Shown in pieces: positions 9,924-60,016 of a stretch of 64,000 bases of DNA. Position 1 is the first letter of the stretch, and each line of letters begins with the position of its first letter. The DNA is taken from the NCBI GenBank assembly GCA_019633985.1, contig JAHQWE010000056.1:1-64000 (forward strand), written 5' to 3'. Source of the stretch: Acidiferrobacterales bacterium (GTDB lineage Bacteria > Pseudomonadota > Gammaproteobacteria > Arenicellales > Poriferihabitantaceae). The notes under the pieces were generated by a model that was not told the DNA's origin, did not search any database, and saw only the letters and a list, made by a program, of their open reading frames with translations. A program made the translations under genes and the position numbers.

Positions 9924-9932
9924 AGCACTGTG

Positions 9933-10075
9933 TTCTCGGGGCGGGGTGCAATTCCCCACCGGCGGTAAATGTTTCTTCAACATAAGCCCGCGAGCGCTTT
10001 CGCATACGATGCGAAGGGTCAGCAGATTCGGTGTAAATCCGAAGCCGACGGTCATAGTCCGGATGAAAGAGAACG
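9933..10075 (+). promoter_or_regulatory. FMN riboswitch (RFN element)
   Basis: The classic RFN landmarks are present in order: a 5' strand TTCTCGGGGCGGGGTG, then GCAATTCCCCACCGGCGGTA, a variable arm, AGCAGATTCGGTGTAAATCCG, GCCGACGGTCATAGTCCGGATG and the closing GAGAAC. FMN binding should turn down the downstream lumazine synthase gene. About 145 bases separate it from that start. Two further hairpins in between (TCCGC/GCGGA around 10100) could belong to the expression platform, but I see no clear U-tract terminator. Confidence 0.95.
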
Positions 10076-10220
10076 ACAACCTGGCAGTGGCAGGTGTCCG
10101 CGTAATTGCGGATATCGATTTGATATGCTGCACTGGAGCCGTGTTTGTCTATTGTCCCGATTGTTTTAATTCGTTTTCAGAGTTCTGAAAATGTGTCACA
10201 GAGACTATAGAGATCTACAC

Positions 10221-11780: not shown

Positions 11781-12106
11781 CAGTTTTGCACGCGCAAAAA
11801 GTCGGAATTCAGGAGGCGAGACAGGAAAGTAATGAATGGCTCTTCTTGAGCTCGCCAGAATTTGGATATCCAGATCCAGGATGAAGGATACGATTCTCCG
11901 ATATTTCTACTGCTTTTCTCCCCTTGTATCCAGTGAAACACTGTTGCGAATTATGACATTGTCACTTTGTTGCAACATTGTGCTGATTATCCATCAGCAA
12001 TCCCCGTGGCGCAATCGGTTATATCTGGGTCGTGAGGCGGGATGTTGTGATTTGTATACCTAACTGCATACTTGCAGCACACTAGAATCACTAACTGATC
12101 GAGTTG
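11781..12106. promoter_or_regulatory. Divergent regulatory region between the GlxA regulator and the MttB-family gene
   Basis: No credible ORF. The centre has closely packed palindromes: TGACA-T-TGTCA at 11954-11964 and the perfect TGTTGCAACA at 11968-11977. The latter lies within a 20-base imperfect palindrome, CACTTTGTTG/CAACATTGTG, at 11963-11982. These are likely operator sequences for the adjacent regulator. The half ACTTTGTTGCAAC resembles ACTTTGTGACAAAAC upstream of the corrinoid-protein gene. Confidence 0.45.
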
Positions 12107-13648
12107 ATGTCAGAAAATCCAAGAAAAAGAGGCGGGCGGCGCGCGCGTGGCGGTACTGGTGCTGCAGAGGGTGGTTCGGCGCCAGCTATCGTGCCCTATA
12201 TCTCCCGGAAAATTCCCCTGTACGAGATCATCAGTGAAGAGGGCTTAGCCACTATTGAGCATAATGCCGACACCATTCTGGAGGAAATAGGGATTGATTT
12301 TCGCTACGAACCAGCACTAAAGATGTTTAAACAGGCGGGTGCCTCGATCGAAGGGGAGCGAGTCCGTTTCCCACGGGGTATGTGTCGGGAGTTGATTCAG
12401 GCTTCCGCGCCGAAGATATTCGAGCAAAAAGCACGAAATGCGGCGCGGAATGTGATGATTGGTGGCAACAATACTGTGTTCGCACCGGTTTACGGCCCGC
12501 CATTTGTGCGTGACCTCGACGGCGGCCGTCGTTATGCGGTACTGGAAGATTTCCAAAATTTTGTAAAGCTCACTTACATGCTGCCTTCTCTGCATCACTC
12601 TGGTGGTACCGTGTGTGAACCGACCGATGTACCGGTCAACAAGCGTCATTTCGATATGGTGTACGCCCATATGAAATACAGCGATAAGCCTTTTATGGGC
12701 TCAGTGACCCACCCGGATAGAGCGCAGGACACCGTAGATATGTGCAAAATCCTGTTTGGCGAGGAGTATGTCGAACAGAACACAGTGGTTATCAATTTGA
12801 TTAACGCCAATTCTCCCATGGTGTTTGATGAGACGATGCTGGGCGCATCTGAGGTGTATGCGCGAAATAATCAGGCAAGCATTGTCTCGCCTTTTATACT
12901 TGCAGGCGCGATGTCTCCGGTCACTGCTGCTGGCACGTTGGCGCAAATTCTCGCTGAAGCAATGGCGGGTATGACGTTTACCCAGCTCGTTAATCCAGGC
13001 TCGCCGGTGGTATTTGGGACATTTGCCAGTTCGATGTCCATGCAATCCGGAGCGCCAACTTTTGGTACACCTGAGCCTGCAATTGTGTTGAATGGTGCAG
13101 CGTCTCTGGCCAGGCGTCTGGGAGTGCCCTTTCGCAGCGGTGGGTCACTATGTGGCTCGAAAGTACCAGATGCCCAGGCGGCCTATGAAAGCGCCCAAAC
13201 TATCATGCCGTCGATCACAGCCGGCGTGAACTTTGTGTTACATGCTGCAGGCTGGTTGGAAGGTGGTTTGGCGTCTAGTTACGAGAAGCTGATCATGGAT
13301 GCGGACCAATTGGGGATGATGCAGGTTTACGCCAATGGCATTGATTTAAGTGAGAATGGCCAGGCGTTAAGCGCTGTCAGAGAAGTCGGGCCCGGCGCCC
13401 ACTTTCTAGGCTGCAACCATACACAGAATAATTTCAAGGACGCTTTTTATCGATCAAACATCGCGGACAACAACAGCTTCGAACAATGGGAACTAGAAGG
13501 ATCGAAGGACGCTGTGATGCGTGCAAACGGTATCTGGAAGAAAATGTTGAACGAATATCAGGCTCCGGAAATTGATCCGGCCACGGACGAAGCACTTCTG
13601 GCATTTATCGCGAAGCGTAAAGGCGAGTTTGAGGATATGAATTATTAA
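12107..13648 (+). CDS. MttB-superfamily methyltransferase without pyrrolysine (glycine betaine/TMA-type)
   Basis: A 513-residue TIM-barrel methyltransferase. It should take a methyl group from a quaternary or tertiary amine and give it to the Co(I) corrinoid protein. Family features include EHNADTILEEIGIDF near residue 47, FAPVYGPPFVRDLDGG, GGTVCEPTDVP, PFILAGAMSPVTAAGTLAQ and PGAHFLGCNHTQNNF. The frame has no internal UAG, so it is a non-pyrrolysine member; characterised ones include glycine betaine methyltransferase MtgB and others acting on carnitine or proline betaine. A TTG lies just before the chosen ATG. The first 25 residues are arginine/glycine rich (RKRGGRRARGG), echoing basic tails in the same cluster. 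Glycine betaine is the likeliest substrate given the GbdR-like neighbour. Confidence 0.9.
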   Translation: MSENPRKRGGRRARGGTGAAEGGSAPAIVPYISRKIPLYEIISEEGLATIEHNADTILEEIGIDFRYEPALKMFKQAGASIEGERVRFPRGMCRELIQASAPKIFEQKARNAARNVMIGGNNTVFAPVYGPPFVRDLDGGRRYAVLEDFQNFVKLTYMLPSLHHSGGTVCEPTDVPVNKRHFDMVYAHMKYSDKPFMGSVTHPDRAQDTVDMCKILFGEEYVEQNTVVINLINANSPMVFDETMLGASEVYARNNQASIVSPFILAGAMSPVTAAGTLAQILAEAMAGMTFTQLVNPGSPVVFGTFASSMSMQSGAPTFGTPEPAIVLNGAASLARRLGVPFRSGGSLCGSKVPDAQAAYESAQTIMPSITAGVNFVLHAAGWLEGGLASSYEKLIMDADQLGMMQVYANGIDLSENGQALSAVREVGPGAHFLGCNHTQNNFKDAFYRSNIADNNSFEQWELEGSKDAVMRANGIWKKMLNEYQAPEIDPATDEALLAFIAKRKGEFEDMNY

Positions 13649-48092: not shown

Positions 48093-48827
48093 TTAGTAGT
48101 AGGTCACGTAACGCTGATGATGAGGCCGCTTGTGACGATGCGGAATATCTCGGCGATGTGCCTTTCGGTGACGTTTCGAATGAATCGCAAATCGTGGCAA
48201 CTTATGATGACGCTTCCATTTATGACCGTGACTATGATCTACATAATCATTGTCGTAAGACTTGTAAGAACCATAAGAACCTTTTTGCGGCTTGTGGTTA
48301 TAGTACACACCTTGGTCATTATAGTGATCCGAATAACCAGCATGATCCCGACCACGATATCGATTATCCACGTAGTCGTCGTTGTATCGGTGGTTGTAGC
48401 CGAAACTGCTGTTGTCATGGTCTTTACCCTTCCACTTGTGCGGCTTGTGGGTAGGCTTCGAATAATGTCCAAGGTCAACATGTACATAACGACGGAACCA
48501 GTTATTGACATGTCGATCGCCTCGATCGCCCTCGCCAAAAACATACTCACGACCGTTTACCGCGAGAGAAACCCGCGTACCCGGGTGGCGTTTTGCCAAT
48601 TCGATTTGAACATTGCCAGAATGGCAAATTTTGCCGATGACACTACCATTACTTGCTTTGCGGAAGTCTCTCGAACCAACCATGACCCGGAAGCCAGCAT
48701 CTCCACCGTAGGCAGACAGTCGATATTCGGTGCAGTTGCCTCCAGCAAACGAAGCGGGCGACATCACCATGCTGGTTACCAACCCGGCACCCATAATCAG
48801 AGTTTTAAAAAAAGTTGTGCTTTTCAT
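48093..48827 (-). CDS. Secreted histidine- and tyrosine-rich basic protein
   Basis: A 244-residue protein I do not recognise. It starts MKSTTFFKTLIMGAGLV with GAGGT eight bases upstream; the frame extends 12 codons earlier, but this ATG is better. A signal peptide ends in SFAGG near residue 28. The folded N-terminal part (residues 30-115, with CTEYRLSAYGGDAGFRVMVG) has two cysteines. Residues about 120-244 are very rich in His, Lys, Arg, Tyr and Asp (HKPHKWKGKDHD, HSHGHKWKRHHK), suggesting metal, surface or nucleic-acid binding. A clear terminator follows. Confidence 0.75.
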   Translation of the reverse strand: MKSTTFFKTLIMGAGLVTSMVMSPASFAGGNCTEYRLSAYGGDAGFRVMVGSRDFRKASNGSVIGKICHSGNVQIELAKRHPGTRVSLAVNGREYVFGEGDRGDRHVNNWFRRYVHVDLGHYSKPTHKPHKWKGKDHDNSSFGYNHRYNDDYVDNRYRGRDHAGYSDHYNDQGVYYNHKPQKGSYGSYKSYDNDYVDHSHGHKWKRHHKLPRFAIHSKRHRKAHRRDIPHRHKRPHHQRYVTYY

Positions 48828-49015: not shown

Positions 49016-49091
49016 AAAAAAAAGGGCCCGGTTGGGGCCCTGTAAAAATCCGCTATGCGGCGAGGAAACTCATGACTACCTTGCTAAAGGT
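49016..49091 (-). ncRNA. Candidate CRP-activated small RNA, about 76 nt
   Basis: On the minus strand the predicted transcript starts at 49091 and ends in a run of eight Ts at 49023-49016. It can fold into three hairpins: ACCTT/AAGGT at its very 5' end, CCGC/GCGG in the middle, and the terminator GGGCCC/GGGCCC. Between the first two is an unpaired pyrimidine-rich stretch (TTTCCTCGCC) complementary to ribosome binding sites of the GAGGAAA kind, as in many Hfq-dependent RNAs. A promoter with a perfect CRP site lies just upstream. I recognise no known RNA family. It could alternatively be an attenuated leader of the gene at 48827, but about 190 bases separate them. Confidence 0.65.
49017..49042 (-). 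terminator. Intrinsic terminator of the candidate small RNA
   Basis: Minus-strand stem GGGCCC-CAACC-GGGCCC followed by eight Ts. The plus strand has no U-tract after the stem, so the terminator is directional. Confidence 0.8.
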
Positions 49092-49097
49092 GGGATC

Positions 49098-49140
49098 ACT
49101 ATAACGTTCTGCTCCCGGTTGTTATGTGAGGTAAATCACA
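49098..49140 (-). promoter_or_regulatory. CRP-class-II promoter of the candidate small RNA
   Basis: TGTGA-GGTAAA-TCACA at 49125-49140 is a perfect match to the CRP consensus TGTGA-N6-TCACA. On the minus strand a -10 box TATAGT lies at 49103-49098, giving a start at 49091. The CRP centre is then 41.5 bases upstream, exactly the class II activator position where CRP overlaps the -35 element. Confidence 0.7.
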
Positions 49141-49407
49141 CCCGGTCGGGTAGGGTGTCACAGGGGCCGTCCTCGTTTATTCTGAAATGGAAGTATCACC
49201 CTCTCTCAGATTGGCTAATCTAAACAGTTTCCGAGGAAATCTCCGTGTATATGTGTTGTCGAATATGAGCGAATAGTTAATAGCTATGAACATATTGTAC
49301 GATCCATAAGATATCGGCAATCAACCCAGACTGCGTCAGAGCCTCGGTACTTGCATCCATCTCAGCTGCCATTACACTCCCACCCCTGTTCGATGAATTA
49401 AGGCCCT
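49141..49407. other. Intergenic region between the small RNA promoter and the ABC transporter
   Basis: No credible gene. It should hold the promoter of the ABC transporter operon, which I cannot place with confidence. Confidence 0.4.
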
Positions 49408-59209: not shown

Positions 59210-60016
59210 ATGCAAAATTTCGTTGTTACAGATTTCCCCGATTCGCCTGATATCGAATCCTCGACCTCAGGATATGCGAGTCGTTTTAGTGGAAAGGTTG
59301 GCCAATGGTTCCTTGCTGTTCAGGATCGCGCTACGAAAAAAGCGATCAAGGCACATTTTGGAGACAAGAAGGGGCTGACTGTTGCTGATGTGGGGGGTGG
59401 TCATGGCCAGAATGTCAAACTCATGGCAAACCTCGGGCATCATCTTACGATAGTCGGCAGTCATTCCAGCGAAACAACCCAGATCCAGGAAGCGATAAAC
59501 AAAGGGCAAATTGAATATGTAGAGTCATCGCTACTTGAATTACCCTTTGCAGATCATAGTTTTGATGTGGTGATCTGCTACCGCGTTCTGTCCCATATGC
59601 ACTCATGGGAGCGTCTGTGTGATGAGCTGATGCGAGTTTCGAATACCTTGGTACTGGTTGACTACCCAAACAAACGTAGTGTGAATGTGTTCACAAACCT
59701 CTTTTTTGGCTGGAAAAAGCGCGTTGAGGAAAATACTCGGCGTTACCGACTCTTTTCTGACAGTGACGTATCACAGCAATTCCAGAAACGACGATGGCAG
59801 GGCACGTTTATATATCGCCAGTACTTGTTCCCCATGGCATTACACAGACTTGTTGGATCGAGAACGTTAAGCTTGTGCTTCGAGAATGTGGCAAAAATCC
59901 TCGGTCTCACCTTTCTTTTGGGTTCACCAGCTATCGCCGGCTTTGTTTGTCCAGAAATGATTGAGCTTGTGCTACAGACAGGAACTTCGTCGATTCATCA
60001 TAAAGAAGTTAACTAA
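59210..60016 (+). CDS. SAM-dependent methyltransferase, class I
   Basis: A 268-residue protein with the SAM-binding motif TVADVGGGHGQNVKLM near residue 62, a type-11 methyltransferase post-motif LPFADHSFDVVICYRVLSHM near residue 109, and VLVDYPNK. The C-terminal third has a basic, aromatic stretch. Substrate unknown. Upstream 226 bases hold no gene. Its stop lies five bases from the stop of the next, converging gene. Confidence 0.82.
   Translation: MQNFVVTDFPDSPDIESSTSGYASRFSGKVGQWFLAVQDRATKKAIKAHFGDKKGLTVADVGGGHGQNVKLMANLGHHLTIVGSHSSETTQIQEAINKGQIEYVESSLLELPFADHSFDVVICYRVLSHMHSWERLCDELMRVSNTLVLVDYPNKRSVNVFTNLFFGWKKRVEENTRRYRLFSDSDVSQQFQKRRWQGTFIYRQYLFPMALHRLVGSRTLSLCFENVAKILGLTFLLGSPAIAGFVCPEMIELVLQTGTSSIHHKEVN

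Follow-up and report, generated by a model that had tools for sequence, protein, structure and literature searches.

A candidate CRP-activated small-RNA gene from a multicopy family known so far in a single bacterial genus

The window analysed here, the whole stretch of 64,000 nucleotides, carries on its minus strand a compact intergenic locus that lies upstream of a gene for a probable secreted histidine-rich protein (48093-48827, minus). In the direction of reading, the locus begins with a TGTGA element (49158..49162, minus) whose second half is degenerate (TACCC), and 22 bp further on stands a CRP site, TGTGATTTACCTCACA, of the form TGTGA-N6-TCACA (49125..49140, minus). The -10 box, TATAGT (49098..49103, minus), is followed by a predicted small RNA of 76 nt (49016..49091, minus), both ends of which are predictions, the start being placed seven bases past the -10 box. 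Within this RNA can be recognized a 5' hairpin from +1, ACCUU-UAGC-AAGGU (49078..49091, minus); a largely unpaired segment, UAGUCAUGAGUUUCCUC (49062..49078, minus), which contains the heptamer UUUCCUC (49062-49068, minus) and is the proposed pairing region; a second hairpin, CCGC-AUA-GCGG (49050..49060, minus); and an intrinsic terminator, AGGGCCC-CAACC-GGGCCCU with eight Ts (49016..49041, minus). An earlier sequence-only reading had described the intergenic region as empty, and between the neighbouring genes it is so except for a chance frame of 81 aa on the opposite strand. Elsewhere in the window, a strong Rfam match marks an FMN riboswitch (9928-10078), and a pyrrolysine insertion element (PYLIS_3, 13149-13247) scores above the Rfam threshold within an MttB-like gene (12104-13648); the frame of this gene has no internal TAG, and it therefore looks like a non-pyrrolysine homologue.

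When the minus-strand layout was recomputed, the centre of the CRP core fell at 49132.5 and the predicted +1 at 49091, a distance of 41.5 that agrees to the base with the geometry first proposed and corresponds to the class II position; the length of 76 nt, from this +1 to the terminator end at 49016, was likewise reproduced. The CRP palindrome had been called perfect, which is true of the TGTGA/TCACA core but does not extend to the full 22-bp E. coli consensus, and the upstream TGTGA (49162-49158 as read) had been overlooked. Shuffling gives an expectation of 0.09 perfect CRP cores per window versus two observed, the other of which, at 59680, is located within a methyltransferase-like coding frame. 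Fold prediction (z = -2.6 for the 76-mer versus shuffles) returned both hairpins and the terminal stem with its eight Ts, as had been described, and added a weak linker hairpin of 3 bp; the pyrimidine-rich middle segment, which had been regarded as free, is largely unpaired. The terminator is the top-scoring terminator-like match of the region. The RNA has features expected of a trans-acting small RNA, namely its own promoter and an intrinsic terminator with a T tract. The locus stands above chance because every one of its elements is conserved in five further copies.

These copies came to light in two ways. A 301-bp query detected a paralogue on contig C34 of the source genome (G000) and a tandem pair of copies in a congener (G001), with 82-83% identity over about 95 bp and unalignable flanks. 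The CRP site, the -10 box, the 5' hairpin, the CCGC hairpin and the terminator are common to all four aligned copies (two from G000 and two from G001), across which the pairing segment and TAGTCATGAGTTTCCTC are 100% identical. A covariance model built from these four copies (R1), which begins at the -10 box and leaves out the CRP site, then gave weak matches in two other congeners, G002 (E 5e-4) and G003 (E 4e-3), and the covariance search recommended in the earlier reading did in this way pick out diverged orthologues. At both loci TGTGA-N6-TCACA is found at the identical 21-bp distance to the -10 box, together with the upstream TGTGA; since R1 contained no CRP site, this agreement is an independent check. 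The scores of a full-length model, R2, on the same two loci (E about 1e-22) arise by construction because R2 includes those sequences. G002 harbours a second copy in tandem, masked in its upstream part, and hence six copies with complete promoters were compared, of seven copies in total.

Invariant across the six are the upstream TGTGA, TGTGA-N6-TCAC 22 bp on (and with it the class II spacing, the start being taken in each case from the -10 box), the -10 box itself, which reads TA(T/C)A(G/C/T)T and follows the 16-bp CRP core at a constant 21 bp, the heptamer TTTCCTC, and CCGC-(A/T)T(A/C/T)-GCGG, a hairpin with an unchanging stem and a variable loop. The long segment TAGTCATGAG is confined to G000 and G001, and the core common to all is TTTCCTC beside the CCGC hairpin. 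The 5' hairpin and the terminator change in sequence while their stems are retained, and every copy possesses a GC stem of other sequence with a T tract. This is clearest in G003, where the 5' stem is AACGCG/CGCGTT (6 bp, of unrelated sequence and in the same place) and the terminator stem is AGCGGCAG/CTGCCGCT. G002 is the most divergent at the 5' end, its hairpin being weak or replaced; the conserved single-stranded core UUUCCUC is present in 6/6 copies, though partly paired in the G002 prediction. Conservation of the CRP site, the -10 box and the terminator in relatives, on which the first proposal had staked itself, was therefore found in three congeners and one paralogue. Comparison at the sequence level establishes the gene family, its promoter architecture, its terminator and its invariant core, and what lies between the genes here is almost certainly a genuine small-RNA gene. 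Directly behind terminators there are REP-like palindromic repeats (CCTACAGGATGTAGG in this genome and ACCAGGATGGT in G002; L171 10480-10800, L006 after 6162, and L173), which in G002 sit between and behind the two small-RNA copies.

The small RNA is present in 4/5 genomes of the genus. The copies of G002 and G003 are syntenic: on one side of them stands the secreted-protein gene and on the other a dienelactone-hydrolase-like gene, beyond which comes the same ABC transporter. The secreted protein (window 48093-48827) has no match in Pfam or NCBIfam, and its gene adjoins the small RNA in all four genus genomes that have it. In these four genomes the gene lies downstream of the RNA and in the same orientation, an arrangement that would also suit a CRP-controlled attenuated leader, whose short RNA would be a by-product and whose read-through product would be the mRNA. 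We regard such a leader as quite unlikely: the terminator is strong, the secreted-protein gene is equipped with a Shine-Dalgarno sequence of its own and, as read by eye, with a candidate -10 box, the RNAs are paired in tandem in G001 and G002, and the C34 paralogue faces a convergent gene, which makes a leader role impossible there.

In the fifth genome, G004, neither a close homologue of the flanking ABC transporter nor the small RNA was found. Searches with R1 and R2 outside the genus gave no convincing member in overlapping sets drawn from the family (24 genomes), the order (109) and the class (369), about 450 further genomes in all, with stricter filters for the larger sets; the weak matches from other families and from the sample of the class lacked the architecture where inspected. 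Homologues of the ABC transporter occur in several other genera, with no small RNA beside those that were readable, and the 20-nt core had no exact match in viral contigs. A contig scan with a short degenerate core proved too loose, yielding 120 chance matches over all phyla, and none of the matches fetched from it had both a terminator and a CRP site. R1 also matched loci of another kind, which are not members of this family and consist of the 3' end of a small-protein gene with TTCCTCC and a terminator (G000:C83, G001:C89, G002:C100:99540, G003:C55 and G004:C47). They form a second conserved candidate, with ATTCCTCCATTGGTGTTTATT or a close variant, in 5/5 genus genomes (G000:C83:3564-3651, L165; G001:C89, L166; G002:C100:99540, L167; G003:C55:75426, L168; G004:C47:57507, L158). 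The protein gene appears DUF1127-like as judged by eye, and the candidate is possibly a 3'-UTR-derived small RNA with an anti-Shine-Dalgarno core.

The complement of the whole pairing segment in G000 and G001, GAGGAAACTCATGACTA, comprises a Shine-Dalgarno sequence and a start codon. The plus strand might itself be functional, and a tiny peptide (MTTLL...) would then begin at GAGGAAACTCATGACTACC, read as a Shine-Dalgarno sequence with its start codon. Such a peptide seems highly improbable: a plus-strand Shine-Dalgarno sequence with ATG does recur in four copies, yet the peptides would be of 5-10 aa with endings that are not shared, G002 and G003 no longer have the ATG arrangement, the region directly upstream offers no plus-strand promoter candidate, and it is for the minus strand that the spaced elements (CRP site, -10 box, terminator) have been conserved.

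The reading that we favour, with a probability of roughly 70%, is that the minus strand encodes a free-standing, CRP-activated, trans-acting small RNA whose UUUCCUC covers ribosome-binding sites with the help of Hfq, a protein encoded in the genome (E 3e-30). Transcription, CRP binding, Hfq dependence and target repression are inferred. A cAMP-CRP-like protein would bind at -41.5 and activate, in class II fashion, a sigma-70 promoter whose -10 box is accompanied by a poor -35; the TGTGA at about -63.5 would probably add a second dimer or strengthen binding. The RNA of ~76 nt would terminate at its own terminator, and its UUUCCUC, exposed between two hairpins, would pair with GAGGAAA, the Shine-Dalgarno region of its target mRNAs, Hfq assisting the pairing and target translation being lowered at high cAMP.

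As to which mRNAs these might be, G000 and G001 were searched for sequences complementary to nearly the whole 17-nt segment, with wobble and one mismatch allowed. G000 has 14 such non-self sites and G001 has 10, and almost all of them are intragenic or off gene starts. The pattern somewhat exceeded a reversed-pattern control (16 versus 7 and 12 versus 7, counts that include the small-RNA copies themselves). Only one site, that of a small membrane protein in G001:C8, coincides with a gene start that is clearly plausible, and G000:C86 is a possible second. This search for near-complete complements in two genomes yielded no convincing target among the 24 non-self sites. An alternative is that the CRP-activated RNA has a protein or another RNA as its partner instead of the ribosome-binding sites of mRNAs; in its favour are that no target could be named in these two genomes, that the CCGC hairpin is conserved as well as the core, and that a multicopy state would suit a titrating RNA. 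A repeated protein-binding motif was not seen, however, and an unchanging pyrimidine stretch, for the most part unpaired and matching Shine-Dalgarno sequences, is the typical signature of a pairing small RNA, and for these reasons we hold action on a protein or another RNA to be rather unlikely.

In the promoter of the proposed pairing RNA, the upstream TGTGA may be a second site of the CRP family, with its centre at -63.5. Within 210 kb of sequence from the genus, a set chosen partly for containing the six sites, the tandem TGTGA arrangement occurs at these six sites only and is absent at other CRP-like sites; another tandem pair, at G003:C27:131796, stands without the RNA, and the arrangement may therefore not be limited to this family. 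Four proteins of G000 exceed the Pfam Crp-HTH cut-off. Two adjacent CRP-like paralogues of 220 aa each (G000:C25:22372-23150; L242, L243) have the recognition helix SSREMVSR versus CSRETVGR in E. coli CRP, and one of them, searched against the PDB, found CRP/CAP (E. coli CRP) as its best matches (E 2e-25). With 124 and 106 bits, both are below the NCBIfam CRP cut-off of 266 bits, and they are consequently to be called CRP-like and not certified CRP, cAMP dependence being likewise uncertain. That this pair acts jointly at -41.5 and -63.5, 22 bp apart, to set the level of a genus-specific multicopy start-codon-masking small RNA is a speculative and unlikely extension.

Among known regulators, OmrA/OmrB and Qrr are multicopy sibling small RNAs, tandem or dispersed, with an invariant pairing core and a diverging remainder. 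The present RNAs resemble them in copy number, in the invariant core and in the diverging rest, and differ from them in control and in core sequence. They make up a well-bounded family with a strictly conserved promoter, and the copies in four genomes provide a covariance model ready for use and, for the search for targets, a clear candidate core. Judged by sequence, the family is new and absent from Rfam 15, which gave sub-threshold chance matches only. The kind of regulator, one that responds to carbon status, is already known, since both CyaR (PMC11795201) and CRP-controlled small RNAs of Yersinia (PMC4376681) have been documented. In Yersinia many small RNAs are under CRP control, and binding is cooperative at those with two or more predicted CRP sites (PMC4376681); Ysr206 and Ysr226 are likened to the present RNA by mode of control alone, that is, direct CRP control of small-RNA genes. 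CyaR (RyeE) is a CRP-dependent and Hfq-dependent small RNA that pairs with the Shine-Dalgarno sequence of ompX (PMC11795201); the present RNA would share with it a free-standing, CRP-dependent gene and the proposed Shine-Dalgarno pairing. The earlier judgement that the likeness is one of logic and not of sequence is borne out, as CyaR is enterobacterial and no Rfam covariance match to it was obtained here at E up to 10, while tandem TGTGA boxes and multiple copies are features of the present family. The rule of CRP-driven start-site masking would thereby be extended to an unrelated sequence, which would suggest that the same circuit has been invented repeatedly.
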